A DNA stretch of 64,000 nucleotides from NCBI GenBank assembly GCA_946183365.1, contig CAMHAH010000005.1:109952-173951 (forward strand), in the 5' to 3' direction. Below, in pieces: positions 56,652-63,966 of this stretch. Both the position numbers and the translations under genes were made by a program. Below the pieces are notes generated by a model that was not told the origin of the DNA, did not search any database, and was given only the letters and a program-made list of their open reading frames with translations. Source of the DNA: an uncultured Clostridia bacterium (GTDB lineage Bacteria; Bacillota; Clostridia; Oscillospirales; Acutalibacteraceae). Position 1 is the first letter of the stretch. Each line of letters begins with the position of its first letter.

Positions 56652-57242
56652 ATGAACGAAAAAACAAAGGAATCCAAATTTCTTGACGCTATAAATAAAT
56701 ATGCCGAGGGCCAGAAGGCTCGCATAACTCAGGAGATCGAGGATTATAAAAACAGTAAGATAGAGCAGGCTACAGAACAGGGCTTGAAGGACGCGTATGA
56801 CCTTATCAAGGGCGATATCGCTGCGCGCAAGGCGGCTATCGTAAACGATACCGCTAAAAAGGAGCTCGGTATTCGCAGAGAGCTGTATAAAAAGCGCCAG
56901 ACTATTCGTAACGAGGTATTTGCCGAAGCTGAGCAAAAGCTGCTTGATTTCACAAAATCAGAGAATTATAAGGAATATCTCAGAAAGCAGGCAGAGAAAG
57001 CCCTCGAGGTGTTAGGCGAAGATGGATGTACCGTTTATATCTCTCCCGCTGATGAGGACAAGAAGGATATCATCCTCGGTATCCTTAAATCTGCCGAGAT
57101 AAAGACTGATAATCATATCACTATCGGCGGATTAAGGGCGTACAGTCGTAAAATGGGCATTACAGCCGACTGCACTCTTGACACGGCTCTCGAAGATCAG
57201 AGCGAGTGGTTCAACGAAAAATCGGGACTTAAGGTGGTGTAA
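56652..57242 (+). CDS. atpE: V-type ATP synthase subunit E (operon 2)
   Basis: Coiled-coil N-term; LGIRRELYKKRQTIRNEVFAEAEQKLLDFTKSENYKEYL. Confidence 0.88.
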   Translation: MNEKTKESKFLDAINKYAEGQKARITQEIEDYKNSKIEQATEQGLKDAYDLIKGDIAARKAAIVNDTAKKELGIRRELYKKRQTIRNEVFAEAEQKLLDFTKSENYKEYLRKQAEKALEVLGEDGCTVYISPADEDKKDIILGILKSAEIKTDNHITIGGLRAYSRKMGITADCTLDTALEDQSEWFNEKSGLKVV

Positions 57243-57244
57243 CT

Positions 57245-58996
57245 ATGGCAGATGTGATTTACGGTATCAACGGTCCTGTTGTAACCGTTAAGGATACCAC
57301 TGAATTCTCTATGATGGAGATGGTATATGTCGGTCGTGAACGCCTTATCGGTGAGGTTATCGGCATAACCTCTGACTATACCACCATACAGTGCTACGAG
57401 GAGACCACCGGTCTTAAGCCCGGCGACCCTGTTGAGGGCACCCATACACAGATGAACCTTATGCTCGGTCCCGGAATACTCGACAATATCTTTGACGGAA
57501 TCGAAAGACCGTTGGCTGAGATAGAGAAAGAAGCGGGAGCCTTTATAAACCGAGGCTCGACGGTTTCTTCTCTCGACACAGAGAAGGAATGGGATGTTAC
57601 CGTTACCGCTAAGGTCGGTGACACCTTAAACGGAGGCGAGGTATACGCTACCCTGCCCGAAACACAGATAATCACACATAAGCTGATGGTACCGCCGCTT
57701 ATCAGCGGTGAAGTTACAGAGGTCAAGCCCGACGGCAAATATACGCTCAATGACGTTATAGTCAAGCTAAAAGATAAATTCGGCACTGTGCATGAGCTCA
57801 CGCTCTGTCAGCGCTGGCCTATAAGAACTCCGAGACCCGTCGCTCAAAGGCTCACGCCTACAGTACCGCTTATCACGGGTCAGAGAGTTATAGATACCCT
57901 CTTCCCTGTTTCAAAGGGCGGCACGGCTGCTATACCCGGCGGCTTCGGCACAGGAAAGACCATGACGCAGCATCAGCTCGCTAAGTGGTGCGACGCCGAT
58001 ATCATCGTATATGTCGGCTGCGGCGAACGCGGCAATGAGATGAGCCAGGTCCTGCAGGAGTTCTCAGAGCTTATCGACCCTAAGAGCGGCAGACCTATGA
58101 CCGACCGTACAACTCTTATAGCCAACACATCTAATATGCCCGTAGCGGCTCGCGAGGCTTCGATTTACACAGGTATCACACTTGCCGAGTATTACCGCGA
58201 TATGGGCTATGACGTAGCTATAATGGCAGACTCAACCTCTCGTTGGGCAGAAGCGCTCAGAGAGATCTCAGGCCGTCTTGAAGAAATGCCCGCAGAAGAA
58301 GGGTTCCCTGCTTATTTACCGTCGAGACTGTCGGAGTTCTATGAAAGAGCCGGCAGAGCTGATGTGCTCTCGGGCACACAGGGCTCGGTAACAATCATCG
58401 GCGCCGTATCTCCTCAGGGTTCGGACTTCTCAGAGCCTGTCACACAGAACACAAAACGCTTCACTCGGTGCTTCTGGGCGCTGGATAAGTCGCTCGCTTA
58501 CGCAAGGCATTATCCCGCTATCAACTGGAACGACAGCTACAGCGAATACTTCACCGAGCTTGACGCGTGGTATAACGAAAACTACGGCAGAGAGTTCGTT
58601 GAGTACCGCAGCGGTATATCCGCTCTGCTGCAGGAAGAGAACCGACTTATGGAGATAGTAAAGCTCATCGGCTCAGATGTACTGCCGGACGATCAGAAGC
58701 TCATCATCGAAATAGCAAAGATCGTCAGAGTAGGCTTCTTACAGCAGAACGCGTTCCACAAGGACGATACCTATGTACCGCTCGAGAAGCAGAAGCTGAT
58801 GATGAAGACCATCCTGCATCTGTATGAGAGATCAAAGTCGGTAGTCGCTGAAAATATCCCGATATCACGCATCAGAGATACGGGATTGTTTGAAAAGATA
58901 ACAAAGATAAAATACGATATCCCTAACGATCGTCTTGAGATGTTTGACGACTACATAAGTGATATCGATGAAAAGATAAACGGAATTCTGAGCTGA
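57245..58996 (+). CDS. atpA: V-type ATP synthase subunit A (operon 2)
   Basis: P-loop [46 protein letters not shown]. Confidence 0.97.
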
Positions 58997-59010
58997 GGGG
59001 GGCGCCGTAT

Positions 59011-60387
59011 ATGATAATTGAATATGTCGGAGTAAAAGAGATAAACGGCTCTCTCGTAGTAATGGACGGAGTAAAAGGCGTATCATATGAAGAGATCGTC
59101 GACATTCGCCTTGATAACGGCACAGTCCGTCAAGGGCGAGTTGTACAGATCGAGGGTGAACGCGTAGTTATCCAGGTATTTGAAGGTACAAGAGATATCA
59201 GCCTTGATAACACAAGCACAAGGCTGACGGGTCATCCTATGGAAATGCCTCTCTCACCTGAGATAGTAGGAAGGATACTTGACGGCGCGGGCAGACCGAT
59301 AGACGGGCTCGGGGATATCTATCCCGTCACAAAAAGGAATATCAACGGTACCGCTATAAACCCCGTATCGCGTATCTATCCGAGAAACTATATCAACACC
59401 GGTATATCGAGCATAGACACGCTCTCTACCCTTATCAGAGGTCAGAAGCTGCCTATCTTCTCTGGCTCGGGTATGAAGCACAATGAGCTCGCGGTTCAGA
59501 TAGTAAGACAGGCTCAGATACAGGGCGCCGATGAACATAATTTCGGTATCGTCTTTGCCGCAATGGGCGTTAAGAACGACGTTGCCGATTATTTCAGAAA
59601 GAGCTTTGAAGAAGCGGGCGTTATGCAAAGGGTCGTAATGTTTTTGAACCTCTCGAACGATCCTATCATAGAGCGTACACTCACTCCGCGATGCGCTCTA
59701 ACGACAGCTGAATACCTCGCCTTTGAGCTGAATATGCATATCCTTGTCATCATGACGGATATGACTTCATACGCCGAGGCTCTGCGTGAGTTCTCTTCAT
59801 CAAAGGGTGAGATACCCGGACGAAAGGGTTATCCCGGTTATCTGTACAGCGACCTTGCGTCGATGTATGAGAGAGCGGGTATGATAAAGGGCTCTGAGGG
59901 TTCTGTAACACAGATACCGATACTCACCATGCCAAACGACGATATCACTCACCCGGTACCCGACCTTACAGGCTACATCACAGAGGGCCAGATTGTTCTT
60001 GACCGAGGATTGCAGGCTCAGGGTATATACCCGCCCGTAAACGTCCTGCCGTCACTCTCGCGACTTATGAAGGACGGTATCGGCGAGGGATTTACAAGAG
60101 CAGATCACTCTGATCTTGCCAATCAGCTTTTCGCAAGCTACGCTAAGGTTATCGACGCGCGTTCTCTCGCTTCTGTAATCGGTGAAGAGGAATTATCAGA
60201 TACCGATAAGAAGTATATCGAATTTGGCAGGATGTTTGAAGGCTCATTCGTCAATCAGGGCTTTGAAGAGAACCGCAGTATAGATCAGAGCTTGGATCTC
60301 GGCTGGAAGCTTCTCTCTACCCTGCCCCGCTCTGAGCTCGACAGAATTGATGACGAACTGCTCGATAAATACTATCAGGGCGACTGA
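59011..60387 (+). CDS. atpB: V-type ATP synthase subunit B (operon 2)
   Basis: [56 protein letters not shown]. Confidence 0.97.
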
Positions 60388-60425
60388 ACATAATTTATAT
60401 ATCTAATTACAAGTGAGGTGATATC

Positions 60426-61046
60426 ATGGCGCAGCAGGCGGTGCCTACTAAAGGCAATCTTATGGCGGCTAAAAAATCGCTGGCTCTCGCAAGGGTCGGT
60501 TATGAGCTGCTCGACAAAAAACGAAATATCCTGATACGCGAGATGATGTCGCTTATCGACAGGGCTTCTGAGATACAGGGCACCATTGACGGAGCTTTCT
60601 CAGACGCGTACAAGGCGCTTGAAAAGGCTAATATAACTCTCGGCTTCTGCAACGAGCTGTCAAAGACTATCCCGTTCGATACAAGCGTTAGTATGGACTC
60701 TCGCTCTATTATGGGCGTTGAGATACCGATGCTCAGCATAGAGAAGCCCGAAGAGAATGAGCTCCATTACGGCTTGAGCGGTACTAACGCACGTTTTGAC
60801 GAGGCTGTCGCTCTGTTCATGCAGGCAAAGTACCTGACAGTGGAGCTCGCGGAGATAGAGAACAGCGTTTTCAGATTGGCTGTAGCGATAAAGCAGACCC
60901 AGAAGCGCGCGAACGCTCTGAAAAACATTATGATACCTAAGTTTGAGGCTGATGTCAAATTCATCACAGACGCCCTTGACGAAAAGGACAGAGAGGAATT
61001 CTCTCGTCTTAAGGTAATAAAGAAACAAAAAGCTAATAAAGCATAG
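60426..61046 (+). CDS. atpD: V-type ATP synthase subunit D (operon 2)
   Basis: VPTKGNLMAAKKSLALARVGYELLDKKRNILIREMMSLI...QKRANALKNIMIPKFEADVKFI. Confidence 0.95.
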   Translation: MAQQAVPTKGNLMAAKKSLALARVGYELLDKKRNILIREMMSLIDRASEIQGTIDGAFSDAYKALEKANITLGFCNELSKTIPFDTSVSMDSRSIMGVEIPMLSIEKPEENELHYGLSGTNARFDEAVALFMQAKYLTVELAEIENSVFRLAVAIKQTQKRANALKNIMIPKFEADVKFITDALDEKDREEFSRLKVIKKQKANKA

Positions 61047-61048
61047 AA

Positions 61049-61081
61049 AAAGACGGAACAGAAATTATCTGCTCCGTCTTT
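61049..61081. terminator. Bidirectional terminator between V-ATPase operon 2 and dockerin gene
   Basis: AAAGACGGAACAGA-aatta-TCTGCTCCGTCTTT. Confidence 0.8.
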
Positions 61082-61084
61082 CTG

Positions 61085-61978
61085 TTATCCTTCTATAGCT
61101 GAATAATCAATATATACTATACAGGGCTCTGAGATATTGCCGTTGCTGTCCATAGCGGTGATGATAAGATCATAGCCGAAGCGTACCGGTACATTCGGCA
61201 AGTCAAAAGTATTCTCATTCACATAACCGCTCGAATAATTATAATCAGTGTCGTCTACGCTTATACAGTACTTGTACGGCGCCGATCCGCCTATAGCGCT
61301 TACGGTGATCTTGCTTTGCTGATACAAAGAGTTAAAGTAATAATTATTGATAACAGGCTTATCGAGAGAGTAAGGCTCAGTGACCGTCATATAAATATCA
61401 TACGATGAACTGCTGTAAACCGTGACGTTCAGCTTATCAAAGCTTTGTACAGTTATATGATAATAACCGGGATCGTCAAACGTAAAGGTGAACTGATTAT
61501 TTGTTGATCTCTCATCAAACACGGTCTCGTGCGTATCAGCGTCGGTAATACATAAGCGGTAGCCTGTGATCTGTGTTCCGCTCACCGCCTCGGCGGTGAA
61601 GGTCACGGGAACTCCCGTCATAGCCTTATCGGGACTGTATGAAGCATAGAAATTGGTTATCCTGTTCTCTTCGGTAAATATACCGCCGCAATAATCGGGA
61701 ACGCCTATCAAAGTCGCCTTTCTCTGGATAAAGGTCGCGTCTATTATAGAGATATTACCGTCTCTGTCATAATCCGCGGCTTCTTTTTGGATATTATCAA
61801 AGTCGGCGATCTTAGTGTCGAACCTCTGTATATGGGTCGCGTCAACAATCGTCACATCTTCGTCGCCGTCAACGTCGCCATACATATGATGAGGATACCG
61901 GATAGCGGCGCTCGCCGTGATCAGCGTGAGCGACAGCACTATCGCTGAGATAATAAACAAACTGATAATTCTTTTCAT
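61085..61978 (-). CDS. Secreted protein with N-terminal type I dockerin-like repeat and Ig-like domains
   Basis: Signal peptide MKRIISLFIISAIVLSLTLITASAA then DVDGDEDVTIVDATHIQR... and DYDRDGNISIIDATFIQRKATL; PKD/Ig-like remainder; start moved inward. Confidence 0.85.
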   Translation of the reverse strand: MKRIISLFIISAIVLSLTLITASAAIRYPHHMYGDVDGDEDVTIVDATHIQRFDTKIADFDNIQKEAADYDRDGNISIIDATFIQRKATLIGVPDYCGGIFTEENRITNFYASYSPDKAMTGVPVTFTAEAVSGTQITGYRLCITDADTHETVFDERSTNNQFTFTFDDPGYYHITVQSFDKLNVTVYSSSSYDIYMTVTEPYSLDKPVINNYYFNSLYQQSKITVSAIGGSAPYKYCISVDDTDYNYSSGYVNENTFDLPNVPVRFGYDLIITAMDSNGNISEPCIVYIDYSAIEG

Positions 61979-62006
61979 TTTGATTTCCTCCTGAAAACAT
62001 TTATTG

Positions 62007-63191
62007 TTATTCACTGTTAAAATACATCTGTTCACCGTAGATGAATCCGTCATTTACGTGATAATATGTATCGTAGAACTCATAGTAGTACAGACCCGGT
62101 TCAGGCAAGATACCGTGATCTTTCGGAGTATAAGTAAGATAATAATTTCTGCCGATCAATGTAGCGTCTGCTATATGCTCATCGGAGAACAGATCGGGGT
62201 CGCCGAGGACATTTCCGTCGGCGTCAAGTATTTTACAATATACTTTTTTGCGTGTGGAATACGCAAAGCAGGTGTCCTTGTATTCTATCGGCTTAGGCGG
62301 ATCCGGGGTATATTCCGGCATCGGGGGTATTTCATAGGGCATATAATCTATACTAAAATATTTGGTACCGCCTGTCACACGACGCTTATGACAATCGGCA
62401 TAAAACTCATAGTAGTAATAGCCTGAGCACGGCAGTACATCATGCAGACCGGGGACATATGTCACGTAGACCTTATTGGTGCCGGGCATTTCTCGCATGA
62501 CGGCAAGGTGCTGCTCACTGAACGGATCGCTGTCACCGTAGACCGTTTCTCTGTCAAGGCTCATTAGCTTGCAATACATCTTGACGTTATTCGGATAATA
62601 AAGCTTATACTCGTAAAAATCACAGTAATAGGATTCGGGATTGTATTCAAGCCACGGATACGGAGGGGCAGTTGCGGGTTCTGTAGGAGCGAGGGTCTGA
62701 TCATCGGGTGCTGCCGTATCGGTATGAACTTCAGCCGGTTCGTAATTCGCGATAAGCTCAGCAGCAGTCGGAGGTTCGGTTACAGGTGACGTCGCGTCGG
62801 TGGAGTTGTTTATACTTTCGGAGGGTGTTTCAGTATTCTGTGATATCTCATTAGTTTCGCTATTATTCTCTGACGAAGTATATTTACTAAGGAACTTTAT
62901 GATATCTTCCTTAGAATATGAGCCACTGAACATCCCGCTTATCACATTTCCGAGAGTTATTTCATTTTCATCGGAAGTCTTGGATATCGGAACACGGTTA
63001 TTCATTACGACAAGAAGGGTAGCTCCGACAATAAGAGCGAGAGAAAGGCAAATGACAGCCGCCAAAACACGGGGCATTCTGTAGAAAGGAACAGGAGATT
63101 TTTTGAGAGAGGATGGAACACTCAGGGCTTTTTTAAGCGCTTCGTCACTGACTGAAATATTTTTGATGCTGTCACAGTTTAGCTCTTTCAT
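62007..63191 (-). CDS. Single-TM anti-sigma-like protein with duplicated extracellular domain
   Basis: Overlaps the ECF sigma gene by 4 nt; TM VLAAVICLSLALIVGATLLVV; two related ectodomain units. Confidence 0.65.
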   Translation of the reverse strand: MKELNCDSIKNISVSDEALKKALSVPSSLKKSPVPFYRMPRVLAAVICLSLALIVGATLLVVMNNRVPISKTSDENEITLGNVISGMFSGSYSKEDIIKFLSKYTSSENNSETNEISQNTETPSESINNSTDATSPVTEPPTAAELIANYEPAEVHTDTAAPDDQTLAPTEPATAPPYPWLEYNPESYYCDFYEYKLYYPNNVKMYCKLMSLDRETVYGDSDPFSEQHLAVMREMPGTNKVYVTYVPGLHDVLPCSGYYYYEFYADCHKRRVTGGTKYFSIDYMPYEIPPMPEYTPDPPKPIEYKDTCFAYSTRKKVYCKILDADGNVLGDPDLFSDEHIADATLIGRNYYLTYTPKDHGILPEPGLYYYEFYDTYYHVNDGFIYGEQMYFNSE

Positions 63192-63676
63192 TCGCCTACA
63201 CCTCCCCCGTAGATCATTTTCAGCTTTTCACGGCCGCGTCTGAGCATAGTCCTGACGGTATTATGGTTTTTGCCGAGTATCTTCGCAATCTGCTCAGACG
63301 TATAACGCTCACCGTAATAAAGATAAAGCACCTCACGATACTTGGGCTCGAGCTTCATCAGCGCCCATGATATATCAAGCTCATCAGAGCTCAGCGGAAG
63401 GGGTATATCATGTATCTCATCTAAAGACAGATGCCTTCGGTTAGCTCTGAAAAATTGATTGCATTCATTGATAGCGACCTTTAGCAGCCACGCCTTCAGA
63501 TGTTCTTCGGATTTAAAAACAGGGGCTTTTGTATACAGCTTTATGAAAGTGTTTTGCATACAGTCTTCAGCGTCGGCAAGGCTGCGTAATCTTACTATGC
63601 AGACGCTCTGGACCGTTTGGGCATACTTACGCACAGCCTCATCATATAAGAGCCCTGCGTAAAGTTTGTCAGCCAT
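63188..63676 (-). CDS. ECF-type RNA polymerase sigma factor
   Basis: SLADAEDCMQNTFIKLYTKAPVFKSEEHLKAWLLKVAINECNQFFR...LEPKYREVLYLYYGERYTSEQIAKILGKNHNTVRTMLRRGREKLK. Confidence 0.95.
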   Translation of the reverse strand: MADKLYAGLLYDEAVRKYAQTVQSVCIVRLRSLADAEDCMQNTFIKLYTKAPVFKSEEHLKAWLLKVAINECNQFFRANRRHLSLDEIHDIPLPLSSDELDISWALMKLEPKYREVLYLYYGERYTSEQIAKILGKNHNTVRTMLRRGREKLKMIYGGGVGE

Positions 63677-63966
63677 AATCAACCCCCTCTATTAATAATA
63701 TACATCAAAGCGCCTTTTTGTTTCACTGAAAGACAAAAAGTTCTCATAAATAACAAAAAGCCCCGTTAACTGACAACGAGACTTCAATCTGAATATTAAC
63801 CATTTAAACCTTCTTAAAGAGTAAGCAGTAATACTAATGGTTGTAGAAACGGTCAATGACCATCCACGCGTAGGGGCGTTGTAATCCCTATCTGCGGTTT
63901 GATATCCCGACATGCAACGGATGACCAGTGGTCATCACTACATCTGATGGCTCACATAATAGTAAA

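Follow-up and report, generated by a model that had tools for sequence, protein, structure and literature searches.

A recurrent ECF sigma, candidate anti-sigma and dockerin gene unit as a probable autoregulated sensor-effector cassette in an uncultured Acutalibacteraceae bacterium and its congeners

The window, the whole stretch of 64,000 nucleotides analysed here, forms the end of a 174-kb contig in a 2.84-Mb draft genome. On its minus strand, positions 61085-63676 carry a gene for an extracytoplasmic function (ECF) sigma factor, a gene for a single-pass membrane protein that is a candidate anti-sigma factor, and a gene for a secreted dockerin protein, in that order (Table 1). An ATGA overlap joins the first two genes, and a gap of 28 nt separates the second from the dockerin gene, which is preceded by an AGGAGG ribosome site. 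The sigma gene probably starts at ATG 63676, and a start at TTG 63682 is unlikely, because a GAGGGGG ribosome site that ends at 63683, 6 nt ahead of the ATG, is spaced to fit the ATG. A preliminary description had proposed a three-gene minus-strand unit with a 4-nt overlap, a short gap and a terminator; this layout is confirmed, with the sigma start moved from 63682 to 63676. Its view that the dockerin gene appears to share an operon with the sigma/anti-sigma pair is supported by gene order and by the recurrence of the unit. Convergent with the unit, window positions 56652-61046 on the plus strand hold genes that, judging by their sequence, resemble those of a V-type ATPase (subunits E, A, B and D-like).

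Table 1. Features of the sigma/anti-sigma/dockerin unit in the window
Feature	Position	Strand	Basis
ECF-type promoter 5' of sigma gene, TGAAAC-AAAAAGGCGCTTTGA-TGTATATTAT; -35 begins 49 nt before ATG	63695..63725	-	Other-species matrix, 24.3 bits
ECF sigma factor of 162 aa with regions 2 and 4	63188..63676	-	Pfam/NCBIfam matches
Single-pass membrane protein, candidate anti-sigma, 394 aa	62007..63191	-	ATGA overlap, one hydrophobic segment, conserved place after ECF sigmas
Short N-terminal tail in the cytoplasm (residues 1-44), presumed to bind sigma	63060..63191	-	Topology by hydropathy
Transmembrane segment, residues 45-63	63003..63059	-	Kyte-Doolittle maximum 2.77, sole region >1.6
P/T/S/E-rich extracellular linker, about residues 67-187	62631..62993	-	Sequence; six paralogues with similar linkers
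Ectodomain copy 1, Ig-like module family	62304..62630	-	Alignment; 101.6 bits, own-genome search
Ectodomain copy 2, Ig-like module family	62010..62288	-	Alignment; 98.5 bits, own-genome search
Secreted protein of 297 aa with signal peptide, dockerin and Ig/PKD-like region	61085..61978	-	Dockerin_1, 36.5 bits
Type I dockerin module, residues 33-86	61721..61882	-	Pfam PF00404
Rho-independent-like terminator 3' of dockerin gene	61047..61083	-	16-pair stem and T-run

The sigma factor is matched by the Pfam families Sigma70_r2 (47.8 bits) and Sigma70_r4_2 (52.3 bits) and by the NCBIfam model sigma70-ECF (TIGR02937; 83 bits, cut-off 42.9). Only Sigma70 regions 2 and 4 are present, which places the protein in the ECF class (size about 160-200 aa). 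SigI factors combine sigma2 with a SigI-C domain and lack sigma4 (PMC6056542). The earlier view that the partner is an ECF sigma and not SigI is borne out by the presence of region 4. The window sigma is 57-59% identical to the sigmas of three paralogous units in the same genome.

The second gene product has no Pfam family over cut-off along its 394 aa. The RsgI family is absent from it and from its six paralogues, and RsiV-type domains were not found in the anti-sigmas of the genome (Pfam in both cases). Sigma binding would fall to residues 1-44. The ectodomain is a module of roughly 90 aa repeated in tandem, its two copies sharing 41% identity; each of the six paralogues has one copy. An AlphaFold2 model based on 78 sequences and covering a slightly longer stretch than copy 2 is all-beta, with a mean pLDDT of 78.5. 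Its best fold matches are immunoglobulin (Ig) and filamin domains, none of them significant (best E 0.04), and the module is provisionally called Ig-like on the basis of this model. Profile searches give no convincing Pfam family or PDB sequence match. The ectodomain had been described as unfamiliar, and HMM/profile and fold searches, which return no Pfam, PDB, CBM or GH match, agree. The accompanying suggestion of polysaccharide sensing is unsupported, the ectodomain being without a CBM or GH match by profile or fold.

The third gene product is recognised as a type I dockerin protein by its Dockerin_1 match (cut-off 22.9 bits) and has a hydrophobic, signal-like N-terminus. Its architecture matches the third genes of the units L190, L195 and L213. 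Across the 57 third genes sampled, the products have the dockerin in common and are otherwise varied. Most often the dockerin is accompanied by a 'YYH' module (36/57), which is found in 85 of the 161 species of the genus; a 'GTMTDW' module occurs in 15 of the 57, and Ig-like tails in five, the window protein among them. PDB searches with YYH-type and GTMTDW-type modules give no match. A repeat of about 100 aa (YYxVGxMxxW...WYPxGxGNxFN), likewise without a Pfam or PDB match, is present in the dockerin proteins L008:3596-5986, L009:5076-6083 and L010:3806-5581; it resembles modules for carbohydrate binding or adhesion. In L217, L220 and L221 the third slot holds a lipoprotein-like gene without a dockerin.

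The genome offers candidate partners for such products. It has 63 dockerin matches, and cohesins, a question that the preliminary description had left to a genome search, are present as five PF00963 matches, four of them over cut-off. The dockerin proteins annotated, which are part of the genome's full set, include GH13+CBM26, CBM26-esterase, CBM26, Cthe_2159 and leucine-rich-repeat proteins. The surface complex is probably amylosome-like, because GH13+CBM26 and CBM26 proteins are among them. A cellulosome context was considered and rejected on the same grounds, and the earlier cellulosome framing is revised accordingly. In its GH13/CBM26 dockerin proteins and its cohesins the genome resembles the Ruminococcus bromii amylosome, a dockerin/cohesin system for which no regulatory ECF cassette has been described (PMC5814915). 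Judged by its dockerin proteins, the host is probably of R. bromii type. One dockerin match (G000 C10, around 58226) lies in an open frame reported as 8402 aa that adjoins a cohesin/dockerin gene and is possibly a giant scaffold or adhesin.

The window unit is one of seven sigma/anti-sigma/dockerin units in the genome: C5 (the window), C1a (131.6-135.3 kb on C1), C1b (175.1-177.5 kb on C1), C2, C11, and C14a and C14b, both on C14. They were found by anti-sigma, sigma and dockerin searches together with the flanking sequence; the paralogues matched by the window anti-sigma are weakly similar to it. Three subgroups can be told apart among the sigmas. C1a and C14a have ectodomains that are 61% identical and sigmas that are 31% identical, and C11 and C14a show the reverse (sigmas 60%, ectodomains 29%), so parts of the units have been shuffled. 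At three other ECF sigma/membrane-protein pairs examined in the genome (C6, C10 and C23), a co-directional dockerin gene is absent. In G000 C10 (L045:5377-8164), an ECF sigma/anti-sigma pair without an ectodomain converges on a dockerin-CBM26-esterase gene.

The three-gene family is widespread, reaching about a third of the genus: the ectodomain profile has matches in 52 of 161 species. A first reading had taken the ectodomain to be species-specific, as it was absent from all but the window's own genome in a sample of 398 family genomes, only five of them congeners; the search of the 161 congeneric species overturned it. Among 71 ectodomain ORFs at 60 loci, an ECF sigma gene lies directly upstream of 64, often with a 4-nt overlap, 50 are followed immediately by a gene for a dockerin or dockerin-module protein, and both neighbours flank 46; these fractions do not describe a random sample, because the loci were picked by best ectodomain score. 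Many of the ORFs without both neighbours sit where a contig ends or belong to arrays of sigma/anti-sigma pairs in tandem. Such arrays of two or three pairs with one terminal dockerin gene are seen in L172, L185, L200, L203 and L216, several of the pairs having their own promoter.

Most units share a promoter-like motif, TGAAAC(C), N15/16, yGTrTwtTA, directly 5' of a GGGGG-type ribosome site. An AAC-bearing -35 followed by an A- or T-tract is a known ECF-type element (PMC6056542 and work cited there). Fifty-five promoter sites from 45 of the 60 loci could be aligned at a fixed placement before the ribosome site, and the distance from the -35 to the sigma start codon is mostly 49-52 nt in units across the genus. 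TGAA[AC]C occurs within 90 bp upstream of 36/58 sigma genes against 11/273 other genes at the same loci (P=2e-23, an optimistic value because related units are not independent). The TGAAAC element, conserved genus-wide at a fixed distance, would suit an autoregulated promoter. The A- or T-tract after the -35 tracks the phylogeny of the sigmas (13 changes, 24.6 after shuffling, 0/500), a pattern that would arise if every sigma recognised its own promoter, as each probably does.

The extent of the regulon was approached with scans of the window's genome. A first matrix built from the genome's own sites is circular for ranking, and ranks were taken from a matrix of other-species sites. Over the 1.3 Mb scanned (about 46% of the genome, a scan that would miss targets with diverged sites), this matrix places C2 first (25.0 bits), the window unit second (24.3), C1b third (22.3) and C1a fifth (21.4), with C11 at 16.4 bits and C14b at 15.4; C14a, which has a poor promoter match only, is not among its matches. 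A strict IUPAC pattern found three matches in the genome and three for a reversed control, and is too strict to judge the regulon. A search for the sigma promoter at other dockerin or GH genes had been proposed; at the 58 dockerin genes examined it is absent, the highest of them scoring 13.2 bits, where six of the seven units reach 15.4-25.0. The regulon therefore looks confined to the operon itself, and a dockerin regulon is not supported. A strong unit-type site (22.1 bits) lies upstream of an Acyl_transf_3 gene on C1 (L247:6185-7672, G000), with no sigma genes between. Genes of this kind fill the third slot of the units L205 and L186, and the site is perhaps what is left of a unit since lost.

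A close functional parallel is the SigI/RsgI system of Acetivibrio (Clostridium) thermocellum. Both have many paralogous sigma/anti-sigma pairs per genome, a membrane anti-sigma with an extracellular module, a tie to a dockerin/cohesin complex and an autoregulated promoter, the last presumed here. Unlike SigI, the window sigma is a classic ECF factor with sigma4; unlike RsgI, the window anti-sigma has no RsgI domain, CBM or GH; and no dockerin-gene regulon is detected, the third gene of the operon itself encoding a dockerin protein. Membership of the SigI/RsgI family was considered and rejected, because region 4 stands in place of SigI-C and neither RsgI_N nor RsgI_M is present. The comparison with RsgI drawn in the preliminary description is apt as an analogy, since one congener has an RsgI_M anti-sigma in the same gene order. 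That congener (G074, contig C53, L081:3592-6541) encodes in one operon an ECF sigma, an anti-sigma that carries RsgI_M (65 bits), and a YYH-module protein of dockerin-like type; by its domain make-up the unit appears to be a hybrid between the RsgI-type and window-type systems.

Other Firmicutes pairs resemble the unit in different respects. With the SigW/SigV/SigM type it shares a sigma of regions 2 and 4 only, an overlapping anti-sigma gene, an AAC-containing -35 with a tract, and expected autoregulation; it differs in its short, presumably sigma-binding N-terminus, which belongs to no assigned family, its new Ig-like ectodomain family and its dockerin third gene. The sigV-rsiV-oatA operon of Bacillus subtilis encodes an ECF sigma, an anti-sigma and, as its third gene, a surface effector. 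The window unit follows the same order of sigma, anti-sigma and surface effector, and two congeners have an acyltransferase gene in the third slot. Unlike that operon, it lacks an RsiV domain, the lysozyme-binding ectodomain, and in the window its effector is a dockerin protein.

Taken together, the window locus is probably one of seven autoregulated sensor-effector cassettes that respond to a cue from the surface complex. Gene order, co-orientation, the promoter-like element, domain make-up and recurrence can be read from the DNA; we infer sigma/anti-sigma binding, release of sigma by a cue, autoregulation and the direction of the response. The membrane anti-sigma would keep the ECF sigma inactive, and the extracellular Ig-like module, held on a long flexible stalk, would read a cell-surface cue. 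With the cue present, sigma would be freed and would transcribe its own operon from the dedicated TGAAAC-type promoter. The output would be essentially one secreted protein, whose dockerin would plug into a cohesin-bearing, amylosome-like surface complex. The cue may be linked to this complex or its integrity, whether as the dockerin protein of the same unit, as the ligand of that protein or as attack by proteases, and a tie to the complex is the most likely because ectodomain and dockerin-protein types co-vary. Three readings of the cue (a polysaccharide, attack on the surface, or a signal fed back by the complex or by the cognate protein) are roughly equal in probability. The analysis leans to surface attack or feedback because of the covariation of ectodomain and third gene, a fusion of dockerin and ectodomain, and the propeptide-like domains of some third genes.

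Under feedback, a possible though tentative reading, the ectodomain would directly bind the cognate dockerin protein, and unassembled or missing protein would tune sigma. Third-gene type co-varies more with the ectodomain than with sigma (partial distance correlation 0.49 with sigma controlled, against 0.29 for sigma and third gene), which could be an effect of adjacency, because the part of the anti-sigma gene that encodes the ectodomain lies next to the third gene. C1a and C14a share propeptide-like third genes as well as their ectodomains, and not their sigmas. A secreted protein of 194 aa in G434 (L194:3441-4025) has both a dockerin and the kind of ectodomain seen in the anti-sigma encoded directly upstream, a fusion that argues for such contact; the units whose product has no dockerin argue against it. 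An extension of this idea, equally tentative, is that the units form a new family of single-operon signalling cassettes in Ruminococcus-type bacteria: each pair would monitor its own dockerin protein or its complex through the Ig-like module and tune how much of that one component is made, the seven units acting as parallel loops that edit the complex part by part and not as substrate-controlled regulons.

A response to attack on the cell surface is as possible and as tentative: on the SigV-RsiV-OatA pattern, the anti-sigma would sense lytic enzymes or proteases, with a protective surface protein (a protease inhibitor, a coat or an acyltransferase) as the product of the third gene. A propeptide-like domain is present in 19 of the 57 third genes; in PDB profile searches it bears a weak resemblance to the propeptides of Tk-subtilisin (best E 0.03). 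Another third gene has a Fervidolysin_NPro-like match (34 bits against a cut-off of 21). The third slot holds Acyl_transf_3 in L205 (G500, 76 bits) and the same kind of gene in L186 (G514). However, the propeptide similarity is mostly sub-threshold, the window third gene has no propeptide-like domain, and no RsiV-type domain was found in the anti-sigmas.

An RsgI-like sensor, in which the ectodomain binds starch or another polysaccharide, frees sigma and raises a substrate-specific dockerin protein, is a similarly tentative possibility. It would follow the SigI/RsgI logic of Acetivibrio (PMC6056542, PMC11557425), and the G074 operon, the starch-binding dockerin proteins of the genome and the all-beta ectodomain model are consistent with it. 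Against it, neither a CBM nor a GH is detected in the 78 ectodomains by searches of Pfam, PDB profiles and folds, the window protein has no RsgI domain, and the promoter is not common to the other dockerin or amylase genes examined. That sigma also drives scaffoldin, amylase or other dockerin genes, with the operon gene as one target of many, is improbable: the one site before the C1 acyltransferase gene fits it, but the low scores of the 58 dockerin genes and the early own-site matrix, in which dockerin genes were not enriched (P=0.25), do not.

The favoured reading, a family of autoregulated cassettes tied to the surface complex, describes a system that appears to be new. The unit had been singled out as a candidate for an undescribed system, and this is supported: the open literature searched, outside of which the published ECF reclassification lies, holds no description of an ECF/dockerin cassette. 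Some group of the published ECF classification could already include these sigmas. The new elements are the ectodomain family and the extracellular modules on the dockerin proteins.

According to a 2024 survey, RsgI receptors are used only by Acetivibrio-type cellulosome producers (PMC11557425), and in the literature searched no transmembrane regulator of Ruminococcus dockerin complexes was found. The window locus and its relatives, present in multiple copies and with a recognisable promoter, are a candidate for that regulator. They offer a testable answer to how such gut-type, starch-degrading bacteria adjust their surface enzyme complex, and the unit promoter is a ready reporter for finding the cue. 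If the cue proves to be the complex itself or protease attack, the principle would differ from substrate sensing.
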